Shown here one piece after another: positions 15,947-44,818 of a stretch of 48,749 bases of DNA (position 1 is its first letter; the number at the start of each line of letters is the position of its first letter). The position numbers were made by a program, and so were the translations under genes. The notes beneath the pieces were generated by a model. That model saw nothing but the letters and a program-made list of their open reading frames with translations, ran no database searches and was not told the origin of the DNA. Source of the DNA: Novipirellula herctigrandis (lineage in GTDB: Bacteria; Planctomycetota; Planctomycetia; Pirellulales; Pirellulaceae); NCBI GenBank assembly GCA_007859835.1, contig SJPJ01000002.1:586498-635246 (forward strand). Reading direction: 5' to 3'.

Positions 15947-17566
15947 TTAAGAAACGACGCCTTCAACTTGGCGCTTTTCTTTGTCTTCATCTTCAAAGTT
16001 CGTCACGAGCGCTTCGGTCGTTAGAAGCAATCCCGAGATACTGCCGGCATTGGCCAGCGCGGTGCGTACAACCTTCACCGGATCAATCACGCCCGCTTTG
16101 ACGAGGTCAACGTATTTCCCCGTGTTGGCGTTGTAGCCCATCGCCCCGGTCTTCTGCAAGACTTCGTCAACCACGACACTGCCGTCGATGCCGCCGTTGT
16201 CTGCAATTTGACGCATCGGAGCATCCAAGGCACGCAAGACAATATCGACGCCGATCTTTTCGTCGCCCCTTGCCTTCTTCTTAGCGGCCTCAACCGCTTC
16301 GAGACAGCGAACCAAAGCCACGCCGCCACCTGGCAACACACCTTCTTCTACCGCAGCACGTGTGGCATGAAGGGCATCTTCCAAACGAGCCTTGGTTTGC
16401 TTCATTTCCGCTTCGGTTTCTGCACCGACGCTGACCACGGCGACTCCGCCGGAAAGCTTCGCCAAACGCTCTTGATACTTTTCCTTGTCGTACTCCGAAT
16501 CGGTTTGATCGATTTGAGCACGGATCTGGCCGACTCGTTTGTCGATCTCTTGGCGGCTTCCGCTACCTTCGACAATCGTCGTGTTGCCCTTTTCGACGGT
16601 CACCTTCTTGGCACGCCCAAGTTGTTCAAGCGTGACATTTTCCAGTTGAATACCGAGATCTTCGCTAATCAGCGTACCGCCGGTCAACACAGCGATATCG
16701 CCAAGCATTGCTTTGCGACGATCACCGAAACCAGGAGCCTTCACAGCACAAACGTTTAACGTGCCACGCAGCTTGTTAACCACCAACAATGTCAACGCTT
16801 CTGCATCGACGTCTTCGGCGATAATCAGAAGCGGCTGACTCGTTTGAGCGCTCTTTTCCAACAAGGGAACAAGATCACGGATGTTGCTGATCTTCTTCTC
16901 ATAGAGCAGCACCAAAGCGTTTTCAAGGTTCGCCTCCATCGTGCCGGGGTCATTAATGAAGTACGGTGAAATGTAGCCCTTATCGAACTGCATCCCATCC
17001 ACGTAACTCACTTCGGTCTTGCGGCTCTTGCCTTCTTCGACAGTGATCACGCCATCTTTGCCAACTTTTTCCAGTGCATCGGCGAGCAAATCGCCAATTT
17101 CACGGTCATTATTGGCACTGATCGCACCGACGTTGGCGATCTGATTTTTGCTGGAAACCGGAGTCCCCATTTCGATCAGCTTCTCCGAAGCAGCATCCAC
17201 AGCCTTTTCGATCCCACGACGGATCGCCGCTGGATTGCTGCCAGCGACGATATTGCGAAGACCTTCTTTGAAGATCGCTCGCGCCAAGACGGTTGCGGTC
17301 GTGGTGCCATCGCCAGCGATATCGCTAGTTTTTTGCGCCACTTCCATCACCAACTTGGCACCCATATTTTCGAAGCGGTCTTCGAGTTCAATTTCTTTTG
17401 CGACCGTGACGCCGTCTTTCGTGACGGTAGGACCACCGAACGATTTGTCGATAATAACGTTTCGGCCAGTCGGCCCCATGGTTACCGCAACCGCGTTGGC
17501 CAACTTTTCTACCCCCGCCAACATGCGTGTGCGGGCGTGGTCGTCGAATAACAATTGTTTTGCCAC
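15947..17566 (-). CDS. groEL: Chaperonin GroEL, copy 1 (adjacent to groES)
   Basis: 539 residues, full-length Hsp60. ATP-binding elements [13 protein letters not shown] and [14 protein letters not shown] are present, as are [16 protein letters not shown] and the C-terminal equatorial segment ending near residue 525. The C-terminus lacks the usual GGM tail and instead ends in charged residues ([13 protein letters not shown]). It starts with GTG at 17566, supported by a GAGGA ribosome site (plus 17575-17580). groES lies 141 bp upstream on the same strand, so this is the partner copy of a groES-groEL operon. It folds proteins in the cytoplasm together with GroES. Confidence 0.97.
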
Positions 17567-18208: not shown

Positions 18209-20265
<2,057 letters not shown>

Positions 20266-39353: not shown

Positions 39354-42185
39354 TTAAGACGAAGCCAATTTTTCTCGCATGTTGTCCTTTGCTACTCCGA
39401 TGGCTTCGGGCAACTTGCTAGGGTCTTTGCCACCGGCTTGCGCCATATCGGGGCGACCTCCGCCACCTCCGCCGACAATTTTCGCTGTGGCTCCGACCCA
39501 TTCGCCCGCCTTGATGCCTCGCTCCACCAATTCACGGCTGACTCCACCTACCAAAACCACCTTGTCGCCTTGGATAGCGGCCAACAAAATGGCCGTTGGC
39601 AGATCGCTTTTTTTGCGGATTTGGTCAATCCAACCTCGCATCACATTCGGGTTCGCTCCTGGCGTTTCAGCTACGATCACCATTGAATCGCCGATCGTTT
39701 CACCACCGGCAATCAAATCATCTGCTGTCAACTTGCCGCCCGCTGTGACTTGACTCAGCTCTTTGACAAGTTTCTTACGATCACCAAGCAATGAACCGAT
39801 TCGATCGACAACATCACTAACCGAGACATTTAGTCGACGCGTAATTTCGCGAACCGCAGCCCGAACCGAATTGTAATCGTCGGTATCCACTGGCTTGTCC
39901 GCTTTTTTGGCGACAAACGCTTCCGAGTGTTGCAAAGGCTTGCCAGCAGAAAGCTCCTTTTTCAATTGCCGCACTTCGGCCGACAATTCTTCCGTTGCCG
40001 CAATCGCGTCTTTGGCATCACACCCTAAAGTCTCGGCAACCTTTCCGAGTAATTCACGTGTTTCAACGCGGTGAGATTGAGCCCGCGTGCCTGTCAATGC
40101 TTCGATCCGTCGTGTTCCAGCCGAAACACTTTCTTCGACCACCAACTCGAACGCTTCGACTTGCTTGGTGTTCGACAAGTGAGTTCCACCGCAAAGCTCT
40201 TTGCTGTACTCGCCCATCGAAACCATGCGAACCGGGTCAGGATACTTTTCGCCAAACAACATCATCGCTCCAGCGGCTCTCGCGTCGACCAGCGGCACGG
40301 TATTCCAAACGATTGGGTCAGCCGCTTCGATGCACATCCAAACATCTTTTTCGATTTCGACAAGGGTATCTTCATCGATCGCTTGTTGATTGGTGAAGTC
40401 GAACCGCAAGCGATCCGCTTCGACCTTACTCCCCTGTTGCTGAGCGTGTTTGCCGATGTTTTTGTGCAGAGCAAAGTGCAGCAGATGGGTGGCCGAGTGC
40501 GCACGGCACAACGCTGCGCGATGTTTCGTATCCACGGTGGCGGTACAGGTTTCGCCTTCGTGAATTTCCCCATTTATCAAATGGCCGTGGTGAACAATCA
40601 AGCCTGCGTGACGCTGTGTATCGGTCACGAGAAACTCAAACTTGTCACTCGAAATCACACCATTATCGCCAACTTGGCCGCCCGACTCTCCATAGAACGG
40701 AGAATGATCCAAAACGAGCCGAAGATCACTCTTTCCAGGTCGATCGACATGACTAAGAAGTTGCCCGTCGTCGTCCCTACCGCCTTGGCCTGTGATGACG
40801 CCCTTGATAATTGCTTGAGACTGAGTTTCCTCGTAGCCCACAAACGGGGTCTCTCGGAGTGCTTCTTTGAGTGTTTCGAGTGGTCCGGTTTGGAACAATT
40901 CACGCTGACCAGCACCGCTAACCAATGCATGTTCGTCCATCGCCTCGCGATACCCTGCCCAATCGAACGTAAAGTTCTGTTCGGCGCTAAGCGTTTGCAA
41001 CAACTCCGGTGGCACGCCATAGGTGGTATTCAGGACTGCCGCTTCGGCACCAGGAACCATCACGCTTGATTCATCTCGCATTTGCTCAAACAGTTGCTCA
41101 ATTCGTTTCATCCCTCCATCGATCGTGCCAAAGAATGCGTTCTCTTCTGACTTAATCACCTGCGCAACTCGCTCGCTCGTTTCGCTCAATTCCGGATAAG
41201 CAACCTTCGATGCTTCGGCAACCGCTTCGACCAGCTTGTAAAGGAATGGTTCGCGCAGATCCATTTGATAGCCGTCCAATACCGCACGACGAATCAACCG
41301 CTTGATGACGTACTTGGCATCCTTGGGACCAGGATAAACGTTTTCGTGAATCGCAAAAACGCTGGCACGAGCATGGTCGGTAATCCTGCGCAACCGGCGA
41401 CCATTGTCGCTGAGGTAGTCATATTTGACACCGCAAACTTCCGAGGCAGCCTCAACGATCGGGAACAGACTGTCAATGTGAAAATTGGTCGGAACGCCTT
41501 GCATCACACTTGCCGTTCGTTCCAACCCCATTCCCGTGTCAATGTTCTTGCTCGGCAACGGGTTGAGGTTTTCGGGTGGTTCGCCGACGCGGTTGAATTG
41601 GGTGAAGACCAGATTCCAGATTTCAACGTCGCTGCCGTCATCAAGGTGGTAATAGACTTCGCTACAGGGACCACAAACGCCATCGGGGCCTTGGCTGGGA
41701 GCCGAAGCAGGCCAAAAATTTTCGTCTTCGTCCATGCGAACAATCCGCGACTCGGGAAGTCCGACTTTGTCTTTCCAAAGGTTGAACGCTTCGTCGTCAT
41801 CCTTGTAAACGGTCACCGACAACCGCTCACCGGGAATGTTGAGCCATTTTTTGTCGGTTAGGAATTCCCAAGCCCATCGGATCGCATCTTCTTTGAAGTA
41901 ATCTCCAAAGCTGAAATTCCCTAACATTTCAAAGAACGTATGGTGAAACGCCGTACGGCCAACGTTGTCGATATCGCCCGTTCGCAAGCATTTTTGGCAC
42001 GTTGCCGCCCGAGTGAACTCCAGTTTCACTTTGCCAAGAAAATGGTCTTTAAACTGATTCATCCCCGCCGGGGTGAACAGAACCGAGGGGTCCCAAGTCG
42101 GTACGAGCACATCGCTCGGTTTGCGAACACACCCTTTTGACTCGAAAAAAGCTAAATATTTCTCGCGTAACTCGTCAGTTTTCAT
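39354..42185 (-). CDS. alaS: Alanyl-tRNA synthetase
   Basis: 943 residues, slightly longer than usual. The class II catalytic domain is at the N-terminus (LFTPAGMNQFKDHFLG; TAFHHTFFEMLGNFSFGDYF; DTGMGLERTASVMQG). The editing domain carries the metal-binding HSATHLLHFALHKNIG and CGGTHLSNTKQVEAF. The C-Ala domain ends with GGGGGGRPDMAQAGGKDPSK. The enzyme charges tRNA-Ala and clears Ser- and Gly-tRNA-Ala. It is divergent from the SelA-like gene across 178 bp. Confidence 0.97.
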   Translation of the reverse strand: MKTDELREKYLAFFESKGCVRKPSDVLVPTWDPSVLFTPAGMNQFKDHFLGKVKLEFTRAATCQKCLRTGDIDNVGRTAFHHTFFEMLGNFSFGDYFKEDAIRWAWEFLTDKKWLNIPGERLSVTVYKDDDEAFNLWKDKVGLPESRIVRMDEDENFWPASAPSQGPDGVCGPCSEVYYHLDDGSDVEIWNLVFTQFNRVGEPPENLNPLPSKNIDTGMGLERTASVMQGVPTNFHIDSLFPIVEAASEVCGVKYDYLSDNGRRLRRITDHARASVFAIHENVYPGPKDAKYVIKRLIRRAVLDGYQMDLREPFLYKLVEAVAEASKVAYPELSETSERVAQVIKSEENAFFGTIDGGMKRIEQLFEQMRDESSVMVPGAEAAVLNTTYGVPPELLQTLSAEQNFTFDWAGYREAMDEHALVSGAGQRELFQTGPLETLKEALRETPFVGYEETQSQAIIKGVITGQGGRDDDGQLLSHVDRPGKSDLRLVLDHSPFYGESGGQVGDNGVISSDKFEFLVTDTQRHAGLIVHHGHLINGEIHEGETCTATVDTKHRAALCRAHSATHLLHFALHKNIGKHAQQQGSKVEADRLRFDFTNQQAIDEDTLVEIEKDVWMCIEAADPIVWNTVPLVDARAAGAMMLFGEKYPDPVRMVSMGEYSKELCGGTHLSNTKQVEAFELVVEESVSAGTRRIEALTGTRAQSHRVETRELLGKVAETLGCDAKDAIAATEELSAEVRQLKKELSAGKPLQHSEAFVAKKADKPVDTDDYNSVRAAVREITRRLNVSVSDVVDRIGSLLGDRKKLVKELSQVTAGGKLTADDLIAGGETIGDSMVIVAETPGANPNVMRGWIDQIRKKSDLPTAILLAAIQGDKVVLVGGVSRELVERGIKAGEWVGATAKIVGGGGGGRPDMAQAGGKDPSKLPEAIGVAKDNMREKLASS

Positions 42186-42306: not shown

Positions 42307-42312
42307 TATAAT
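42307..42312 (+). promoter_or_regulatory. Consensus -10 box before the SelA-like gene
   Basis: A perfect TATAAT at 42307-42312 lies 51 bp before the ATG at 42364. No good -35 box is found at normal spacing (the nearest, GTACAT, is 15 bp away), so an activator or an extended -10 may be needed. It is the best promoter candidate in the alaS divergent gap. Confidence 0.42.
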
Positions 42313-42363: not shown

Positions 42364-43707
42364 ATGGCTATCCCTCCTTGGACTGTTGAATTGCTCCGCC
42401 GTGGCCTGAGCGATGTCGCGCGGCGTGCCAGCGAACCTGAAACGCTCGAAAAACTAAAAACTCAAGCGACCGAGATTATCAACGAACTACCGCAAACGGC
42501 CGCTCGCGGGTTCGACGCGGTCATGCGTGCCACCGAAGCGGGCCGCAAGAATGTTCAGCGCTGGAGCCAAAGGCAATCGGCCGTGACGATTCCGCTGGTC
42601 AACGCGAGCGGTGTGCTGGTTTCACCTTATGGCACCGGCGTTCGGGTGTCCGACCAAGCGGTCGAAGCAGCCTACGCATGTCTGCACGGCGATATCCGCA
42701 AAGACCATCAAGCAATGGAGCGTTTGCAACGGCATTTGCACCGCCAACTGCCATCGACGTCCGATGTCGATATCGCTGTGACGACCAACTTCCAGGCCAC
42801 CCTGGTCGCGCTCGTGATTGGCATGAGCCAAAAAGACATTTTGGTACATCGCAGTCAAGCAATTCGGCTTCGTGGCGGCACATCCCTTGTCGACACGATG
42901 AATGCTCTGGTACCGATCGTTCAAGAGGTCGGCGCGAACGACGGCGTTGAAATGTCGGACTTTGATGAATACGATTCGTTTTGCCTCGTTCTTGCCGATG
43001 ACGAGACTCACGACGCCTTGCCAAAGCCGCTTGAATTGAACGATCGTGACTGTATCCAAGTGGTCGTTTTGCCAATCGCGTCGCTAAAGCAATCAGCCAA
43101 CGATACTCTTCCCTCGGTCGAAAAGATGCTCGACGCAGGAGCCGATTTGGTCATCGTCGAAGGAGGTGGCGTGTTCGGCGGACCGGAATGTGGAATCATG
43201 ATCGGAAAAACAAACTTGGTTCGATCGATCACCTCGACCGCAATTTGGCCCTCGTTCGCAGCCGGCAGCGCGGTGATGGCGATGTTAGCATCGACAATGC
43301 AAAACTTAACCAGTGCGCTCGGTGCGTCGCTGCCGATTGAAGAATTAATTGAAACGAGTGATGACAATTTACGTTTACGAGCCGAACGAATGGCGACCCG
43401 ATTGAGTGCTTCCGATTCGATCAAAAGTTGTCAAGTCACCAACGATGAGGCTCGAGTGACCACGAAAGGCCGATGGCGATTCCCATCGCGTCAAGTGCGT
43501 ATTGAACACGCATCGCTTGACGGACAGGAATGGGCCGACCAATTGAGAGACGAATTTCCATCGCTATTGGTTGGGGTCGAAGGCTCGGCAATCAAGATCG
43601 ATTTACGTTGGATCGCTCCGGCCAATGACGCTCGGATTGGTGAGCTTTTGGTTCCGCAGCACGATGTTGACGCTACGGAGAATCCCGAGACGACGAGTAC
43701 GCCATAG
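42364..43707 (+). CDS. SelA-like PLP-fold protein lacking the cofactor lysine
   Basis: 447 residues. The order of blocks matches L-seryl-tRNA(Sec) selenium transferase. An N-terminal helical domain is followed by IPLVNASGVLVSPYGTGV (VINATGVVLHTNLGR in SelA), VAVTTNFQATLVALVIGM-type sequence near 138-155 (VVNNNAAAVLL), RGGTSLVDTM, IVQEVGANDG (LVEVGTTNRT), and VEGGGVFGGPECGIMIGK (SGDKLLGGPQAGIIVGK). The SelA lysine that binds PLP falls on Gly269, so catalysis of the usual kind is not expected. It may be a binding or scaffold protein, or have gained another activity. It overlaps queG by 105 bp, tail to tail. Confidence 0.82.
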   Translation: MAIPPWTVELLRRGLSDVARRASEPETLEKLKTQATEIINELPQTAARGFDAVMRATEAGRKNVQRWSQRQSAVTIPLVNASGVLVSPYGTGVRVSDQAVEAAYACLHGDIRKDHQAMERLQRHLHRQLPSTSDVDIAVTTNFQATLVALVIGMSQKDILVHRSQAIRLRGGTSLVDTMNALVPIVQEVGANDGVEMSDFDEYDSFCLVLADDETHDALPKPLELNDRDCIQVVVLPIASLKQSANDTLPSVEKMLDAGADLVIVEGGGVFGGPECGIMIGKTNLVRSITSTAIWPSFAAGSAVMAMLASTMQNLTSALGASLPIEELIETSDDNLRLRAERMATRLSASDSIKSCQVTNDEARVTTKGRWRFPSRQVRIEHASLDGQEWADQLRDEFPSLLVGVEGSAIKIDLRWIAPANDARIGELLVPQHDVDATENPETTSTP

Positions 43708-44673
43708 AGGCGTTTTACGGTAACGGGCCCGAAAGGTTTCGTCCGTCATTTCCGCCCAACCGTCAAGCGGTAATGTTTGCATCGGGTACGACTGGGTGCT
43801 TGTGGTTTCTTGACGATTGGTTTGTCGACCTGGGCGCCGCCTATGGGGCTTTCGATTCCATGGACAAACCTCTTGGCAAACATCGCACCCGAACACCCAA
43901 TCGCCGATGCCCAATTCGAGGTTCGGATCGATCGATTGTTCAGCCTTCGATTCGCTATCACATCGCTTTTCAATCGTCAAATAGCTAATGCAGCGTGTCG
44001 CATCGAGCACGCCGGGTCGAGGAAAAGCATCGGTCGGGCACGCATCGAGACAAGCCGTACAGGTCCCACAATGCGACGAAACGTGAGGTTCATCTGGTGG
44101 CAATGCGACATCCGTAAGGACACAAGCAAGAAAGAAGTAGCTGCCGAGTTGTTTGTTTAGCAGCAGTGTGTTCTTTCCTCGCCACCCCAAACCCGCAAGC
44201 TGCGCCACTTCGCGTTCCATCAACGGCGCAGTATCAACAATGCCTCGCGCCTTTGATTCGCTGTTCCAATTGCGAAGCATTCGACAGAGTCGTTTGAGTT
44301 TCGGATGGATTTGATCATGGTAATCGTCGCCACTCCAAGCATAACGTGCCACTTTTCCCCTGCCGACCGGGACTGTGGGGGTCGGAGTGTCGGACGGGTA
44401 AGGATAGGCAAGACAGATCACTGACTGGCATCCTTCGAGAACGCCGCGAGGGTGTCGGTAGGCATCGAGCCGATCAGCAAAGTATTGCATTTCGCCCGCG
44501 AAACCAGCATCAATCCACTCGACTAATCTTGAAAAGCCCGTTGCATTGACCGCTTGCGCCACACCGACTTTGGCAAACCCAAGACGAGCCGCTCTTGCTC
44601 GAAAGGCATCCATGAAAGCTTCCGGCGAAAAACCGGATAGAGCAGTCGTTTCGTTTCCAAGTATTTCGTTCAT
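43603..44673 (-). CDS. queG: Epoxyqueuosine reductase QueG
   Basis: 356 residues from the ATG at 44673; a longer frame begins with TTG at 44706, but MNEILGNE with GGGGATTGG before it is the better start. Cobalamin- and iron-sulfur-dependent reductase for the last step of queuosine synthesis in tRNA. It shows the N-terminal B12-binding part (LGFAKVGVAQA; YFADRLDAYRHPRGVLEG), GLGWRGKNTLLLN, and two [4Fe-4S] sites (CGTCTACLDACPTDA; GCDVCQEVCPWN). The C-terminal R.TPLWRTRR.GILR segment lies inside the overlap with the convergent SelA-like gene. Confidence 0.95.
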   Translation of the reverse strand: MNEILGNETTALSGFSPEAFMDAFRARAARLGFAKVGVAQAVNATGFSRLVEWIDAGFAGEMQYFADRLDAYRHPRGVLEGCQSVICLAYPYPSDTPTPTVPVGRGKVARYAWSGDDYHDQIHPKLKRLCRMLRNWNSESKARGIVDTAPLMEREVAQLAGLGWRGKNTLLLNKQLGSYFFLACVLTDVALPPDEPHVSSHCGTCTACLDACPTDAFPRPGVLDATRCISYLTIEKRCDSESKAEQSIDPNLELGIGDWVFGCDVCQEVCPWNRKPHRRRPGRQTNRQETTSTQSYPMQTLPLDGWAEMTDETFRARYRKTPLWRTRRLGILRSVNIVLRNQKLTNPSVIGRSDPT

Positions 44674-44818
44674 CCAATCCCCATGGCGCGAAGCGGCGCG
44701 ATACAATTACGGTCACTTTCCATTTTGTCTGTTTTCATCTAGCTCGCGCTTAGCCGCTTGGCCGATCGTGGATACGCTAATGTGCCAGCCAAGCCCTTCA
44801 TTCTTTGTGGAGCCGAGT

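Follow-up and report, generated by a model that had tools for sequence, protein, structure and literature searches.

What becomes of selenocysteine synthase (SelA) once the lysine that holds its cofactor is gone? The question is raised by a gene in a stretch of 48,749 nucleotides from Novipirellula herctigrandis (contig SJPJ01000002.1, positions 586,498 to 635,246; hereafter the window), the product of which carries a glycine at the site where SelA forms the Schiff base with pyridoxal phosphate (PLP). A first-pass annotation had read the protein as SelA-like and possibly a pseudo-enzyme, and had guessed at a role linked to tRNA from its neighbours. The features of the locus are collected in Table 1.

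Table 1. Features of the SelA-like locus, with positions counted from the first letter of the window.
Feature	Position	Strand	Basis
Probable SelA-like pseudo-enzyme, 447 aa (ATG-initiated, unbroken ORF)	42364..43707	+	ORF, Pfam SelA, profile and fold match
N-terminal helical domain, residues 1-77, MAIPPWTVELLRRG...	42364..42594	+	Best conserved part of the subfamily
Gly92, replacing selenophosphate-binding Arg86 of Aquifex SelA	42637..42639	+	Alignment
EGGGVFGGPE loop, residues 266-275, counterpart of SelA SGDKLLGGPQ	43159..43188	+	phmmer alignment
Codon GGC, Gly269, site of PLP Schiff-base lysine Lys285	43168..43170	+	Alignment
Residues 296-299, with Pro296 and Ala299 replacing selenophosphate-binding Arg312 and Arg315	43249..43260	+	Alignment
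TATAAT, possible -10 box, 51 nt upstream of the ATG	42307..42312	+	Weak
alaS, divergent upstream neighbour	39354..42185	-	Pfam; no conserved partner
queG, convergent neighbour	43603..44706	-	Pfam; no conserved partner

The kinship with SelA was evident from both sequence and predicted structure. The Pfam SelA family (PF03841) matched the window protein with 58.2 bits (E 9.7e-16, gathering cut-off 22.8) and matched all 22 members of the family alignment at E 0.01 or better. The profile of these 22 members aligned with Aquifex SelA (3w1h) over profile positions 35-428 at E 4.3e-31, which bears out the earlier observation that the sequence blocks run in the order of selenocysteine synthase. When the AlphaFold model of the protein (mean pLDDT 81.1) was compared with the PDB by Foldseek, ranks 1-22 were all SelA, with a best E of 5.9e-23. 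Given the strength of the profile and fold matches, the homology is not due to chance, and both kinds of search returned SelA instead of an unrelated family. The score against TIGR00474, the selA equivalog model of NCBI, was 79.5 bits with a cut-off of 267.9. The sites of Thr191 and Thr192 in SelA are occupied by Ala191 and Asn192, which is at most suggestive as regards the pentamer-of-dimers assembly; in the depentamerised SelA mutant 3wco the two threonines are changed to Tyr-Tyr.

While the fold has been conserved, the catalytic residues have been lost. The single-sequence phmmer alignment set Lys285 of SelA against Gly269, just as the first-pass annotation had proposed from the loop motif, and Asp284 against Gly268. 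In PMC4607533, Arg86, Arg119, Ser217, Ser282, Asp284, Lys285, Arg312 and Arg315 are described as binding PLP or selenophosphate or as positioning the residues that do so. At these sites the window protein has, in order, G, L, I, E, G, G, P and A, and thus keeps none of the eight. Of the Lys-bearing SelA proteins, 26 of the 28 from the order and 26 of the 27 from other parts of the phylum retain the complete set. The Asp of the SelA YDAGSG block, to which we assign an active-site role, is V235 in the window protein.

The same erosion was seen in the relatives of the protein. We delimited a subfamily of 64 proteins, consisting of 54 rows with an N-terminal PW motif and a further 10 chosen manually, all of which have a P-x-W N-terminus; the PW motif was found in none of 55 Lys-bearing rows. 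At most one of the eight active-site residues was present in 56 of the 64, two were present in 2 and three or four in 6. The other Lys-less proteins had zero or one in 32 of 41 cases and two or three in the remaining nine. In the subfamily, which was drawn from rows without lysine, the lysine site was occupied by G (38), P (11), V (11), T (2), H (1) or R (1), and 14 different residues were found there across the sampled Lys-less homologues. A relocation of the cofactor lysine was rejected, because no column of the core had more than 50% Lys among the 64 members; the only columns above this level were residues 21 and 32, both in the N-terminal domain.

It could be argued that catalysis has persisted, either with PLP bound in the absence of a Schiff-base lysine or with the old pocket adapted to a different ligand and chemistry. 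In favour of this, both the glycine-rich loop and the N-x-x-G block survive, R163 (97%), E188 (90%) and D261 (92%) are conserved in the subfamily when counted over 60 of its 64 proteins, and in ColD a His reportedly stands in place of the PLP lysine and the enzyme works nevertheless. However, Asp284, Ser282, Ser217, Arg86, Arg119, Arg312, Arg315 and the Asp of the YDAGSG block have been lost jointly, and the variability of the lysine site means that there is no single replacement base. We therefore consider continued catalysis unlikely.

The glycine of the window protein is part of a larger pattern of Lys-less homologues in this planctomycete order. At E 1e-5, 112 of the 196 genomes searched in the order contained a homologue, and in the family a match at E 1e-20 was obtained from 89 of 241 genomes. 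A scan of genome contigs with the single protein gave no relative, and a scan based on the alignment gave 21 loci; the relatives include Rhodopirellula maiorica SM1 (Rhodopirellula appears only in a figure legend in the available part of PMC5330540). Among 133 distinct homologues that were aligned, 28 have the lysine and 105 another residue, proportions which are no census because the homologues were taken from the better matches to a Lys-less query, and these were fetched first. In the search of the whole phylum a match was found in 194 of 294 genomes, and the lysine was present in 27 of the best 30 loci, the three others being the window gene and two proteins from its own family; thus the loss of the lysine appears to be confined to the order, as sampled.

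Phylogenetic analysis suggests that the Lys-less family arose once, from inside the true SelA proteins of the order. In an IQ-TREE analysis of 53 hand-picked rows out of 160, from which the motif columns had been removed, all 27 Lys-less rows formed one clade (ultrafast bootstrap 96, SH-aLRT 94) that lay within the Lys-bearing SelA of the order, and in 96% of 200 bootstrap replicates a single change of the lysine state was sufficient. Concordant results came from quick trees of 77 rows (41 of them Lys-less; SH-aLRT 95) and of 99 rows (unrooted), and the long branches of L026 and L087 call for some caution in reading the topology. The Lys-bearing row nearest to the Lys-less clade, L058 (96/77), keeps seven of the eight active-site residues. 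It comes from the one-contig genome G005 (C1:3163500-3168000), in which selB and tRNA-Sec were not over the cut-off, and it may represent a half-way state between true SelA and the Lys-less clade.

Is the gene, then, merely a relic in decay? An eroded active site would fit such a reading, and yet the frames are open across many genera, with only a few relatives having one stop within the match, and the N-terminus is better conserved than the core. Of 61 close pairs, one of them from a sister clade, six were saturated in dS; the other 55 gave dN/dS ratios of 0.032-0.258. The window gene itself differs from its five nearest relatives by dN 0.22-0.29 and dS 1.6-2.5, the latter near saturation. 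The dN/dS values, well below 1, led us to reject pseudogene decay, and we give the relic next to no credence; purifying selection acts on the Lys-less family. The gene had been called intact and not decaying, and this holds. A conserved fold, lost catalytic residues and purifying selection are together what is expected of a pseudo-enzyme, which makes that part of the earlier reading likely as well.

We then considered whether the Lys-less proteins occur together with the machinery for selenocysteine (Sec), a subject treated for planctomycetes in PMC4807772; SelA homologues without Sec are dealt with in general in PMC1794560. The tally covered 80 hand-picked genomes, 28 with a Lys-bearing SelA and 52 chosen for their Lys-less homologues. 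selB exceeded the cut-off in 25 of the 28 Lys-bearing genomes (the exceptions being G001, G005 and G162) and in none of the 52 Lys-less-chosen genomes. tRNA-Sec was over the cut-off in 27 of the 28, with at least 60 bits in 26, and in four of the 52, three of them at 50-55 bits and G173 at 79.9. In the genome of the window neither selB nor tRNA-Sec was found above the cut-off, and no second SelA homologue was detected, the only match elsewhere being of 36 residues at E 1.9. Lys-bearing SelA thus tracks Sec decoding, and the sampled Lys-less proteins occur mostly without the Sec machinery. The two are not mutually exclusive, since G113, G117 and G180 each encode, besides a subfamily member, a Lys-bearing SelA, selB and tRNA-Sec, and a link with Sec may exist there. 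Accordingly, a true selA beside selB, which the first-pass annotation had thought worth looking for, was not found in the window genome and is present in these three.

The strong match to the selA model was the Lys-less gene itself in 51 of the 52 Lys-less-chosen genomes. The exception, G173, has a second, truncated SelA on the contig that bears its tRNA-Sec and is therefore probably a Sec user carrying both genes; G046 has an additional weak match (35.5 bits). The Lys-less gene passed the TIGR00474 cut-off in five of the 52 genomes (G015, G046, G078, G093 and G173). In a separate observation, the Lys-less protein L054 (G173:C166, noted together with G173:C164) has Glu for Lys, a local deletion and one of the eight residues, and still scores 281.3 bits against TIGR00474. 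An annotation as SelA, or a score alone, does not show the use of Sec in planctomycetes.

These counts also bear on the possibility that the protein serves, within a hetero-oligomer, as the inactive partner of a catalytically active fold-type I enzyme. There is a precedent in hLCB1, a chain that has no PLP lysine and forms a pair with hLCB2 (PMC3794620), and a Lys-bearing SelA that might serve as the partner is present in G113, G117 and G180. However, the window genome holds no other SelA homologue (the search covered SelA homologues only), and in 51 of the 52 genomes the strong match was, as described above, the Lys-less gene itself. Such a pairing is in our judgement quite improbable.

The surroundings of the gene gave little indication of a partner. 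The identification of the flanking genes as alaS and queG was upheld by Pfam, and the 3' end of the queG ORF overlaps that of the SelA-like ORF by 105 nt (43603-43707). Within the genus of the window the two further genomes differ, L158 having both alaS and queG and L159 neither. Across 41 context loci of the subfamily (some truncated at contig ends, and with L139 left out) alaS was at most two genes away in five and queG in one, and no neighbour was constant; a sulfatase, a DUF1501 protein and an Nramp transporter are among the neighbours at other loci. As the neighbourhood varies from locus to locus, no partner can be named from it, and because the alaS and queG neighbourhood is local, the guess of a tRNA-linked role is not supported. 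The consensus -10 box that had been pointed out is present as TATAAT, but it is weak evidence of a promoter because two hits of this type were found in the window with 5.5 expected by chance, and a promoter scan gave no -35/-10 pair 5' of the gene and a single hit inside it. Elsewhere in the window, two ORFs on the minus strand that lie near one another (15947-17566 and 18209-19942) have starts that we take to be GroEL-like.

Two further arrangements were observed at other loci. At L132 (G371:C58:25000-41000) two SelA-like copies lie in opposite orientation with mirror-image flanks, either an inverted duplication or an assembly artefact. At L045, L046, L048 and L049, from two other genera, a Lys-less SelA is followed on the same strand by an ORF of 278-306 amino acids, with an HHEWA motif at L045 and L046; the downstream ORF of L045, the only one examined, had no match in Pfam. 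The product of this ORF is a possible partner for that branch.

The most conserved part of the subfamily is its N-terminal domain. About 75 residues long, it occupies the place of the tRNA-Sec-binding domain of SelA and cannot be aligned with it: hhalign gave a probability of 1.8 for 58 subfamily N-domains compared with 28 of Lys-bearing SelA. For the N-domains of 35 other Lys-less proteins the corresponding probability was 99.7, six further Lys-less proteins being left out. In the Lys-bearing SelA of the order, mean column identity rose from 0.52 at the N-terminus to 0.73 in the large domain and 0.93 in the first active-site loop, and the same regions of the subfamily gave 0.62, 0.47 and 0.63; among the 24 nearer members the N-terminus reached 0.83, the large domain 0.64 and the C-terminal domain 0.67. 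The N-domain was modelled by AlphaFold as a pair of helices, at a low confidence of 40-66 when averaged over blocks of ten residues (residues 1-80). No Pfam family was over the cut-off for this domain, the best being DUF6381 in a relative (16.3 bits, with 26.6 required), the PDB gave only weak matches (best E 0.033), and the window genome contained no second copy (next match E 0.57). A polar patch in the C-terminal part, N335, R339, R342, S375-Q377 and D413-W416, is likewise conserved in the subfamily, as counted over 60 of the 64 proteins. From this distribution we infer that the chemistry was lost first, with the SelA-type N-domain kept, and that the window subfamily later replaced or remodelled the domain.

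A SelA-type N-domain is retained by 35 other Lys-less proteins from the order, and this, along with the place of the gene between alaS and queG, could also speak for an accessory function in tRNA or Sec metabolism. Nevertheless, selB is over the cut-off in none of the Lys-less-chosen genomes, tRNA-Sec reaches at least 60 bits only in G173 with its truncated second SelA, the alaS and queG neighbourhood is not conserved, and the N-domain of the window's own subfamily does not align with that of SelA. An accessory role of this kind seems very improbable to us.

Taken as a whole, the sequence data make it likely that the window protein descends from SelA but has lost both catalysis and PLP, and that it is retained as a binding or scaffold protein. 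Selection keeps the gene despite the lost active site, and many of its hosts are without the Sec machinery, which probably indicates a new, non-enzymatic job. The trigger may have been the loss of Sec decoding or the release of a duplicate, after which the SelA body, oligomeric in the ancestor, would have been retained as a non-enzymatic scaffold. Such a protein would bind no PLP and catalyse no reaction, and would act through binding, as an oligomer inherited from SelA. In the window subfamily the working surface is probably formed by the N-terminal helices and the conserved polar C-terminal patch, and the partner might be a protein, a membrane or a nucleic acid. The scaffold role is deduced from what is absent. 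A bolder proposal is that the active site died a single time in this order and that its descendants radiated into a superfamily of PLP-free, ring-type scaffolds, in the window lineage of which a new helical docking domain took the place of the tRNA-binding domain; this is conceivable, but we hold it with some doubt.

In this family the conversion of a cofactor enzyme into a pseudo-enzyme, away from the pathway it once served, can be placed in order on a tree, and L058 of genome G005 is a possible surviving intermediate. No Lys-less SelA was described in the titles and the beginnings of abstracts among the matches listed from the open-licence literature. If the bolder proposal is true, this would, within the literature searched, be the first lineage in which an enzyme of Sec synthesis has been rebuilt as a non-enzymatic structural or regulatory protein.

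Compared with known systems, the window protein stands closest to SelA itself (PF03841, TIGR00474; 3w1h, 8uzw), with which it has the fold, the length and the order of blocks in common. It differs in having none of the eight active-site residues, an N-domain that is not recognisably of the SelA type and a score below the equivalog cut-off, and in coming from a genome in which selB and tRNA-Sec are not above the cut-off. DgaE (7lc0), MJ0158 (2aeu) and Cap15 (8t7j) are related to SelA and were the next-best folds, with weaker matches (E 1.8e-15 or worse, compared with 5.9e-23); all are PLP-dependent by name, 8t7j in its PDB title and DgaE and MJ0158 in the names of NCBI models. The hLCB1 chain of serine palmitoyltransferase is, like the window protein, a member of a PLP-enzyme family without the PLP lysine, but according to PMC3794620 it works beside a Lys-bearing homologue, whereas the window genome yielded no further SelA homologue. 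The orphan SelA of H. pylori is likewise under purifying selection where other Sec genes are absent, and in the account given in PMC4607533 it has lost the tRNA-binding N-domain and kept Lys285, Arg86, Arg312 and Arg315. Set against that account, the window subfamily appears as its reverse, the active site being gone and the N-domain, though not SelA-like, being the best conserved part of the protein.
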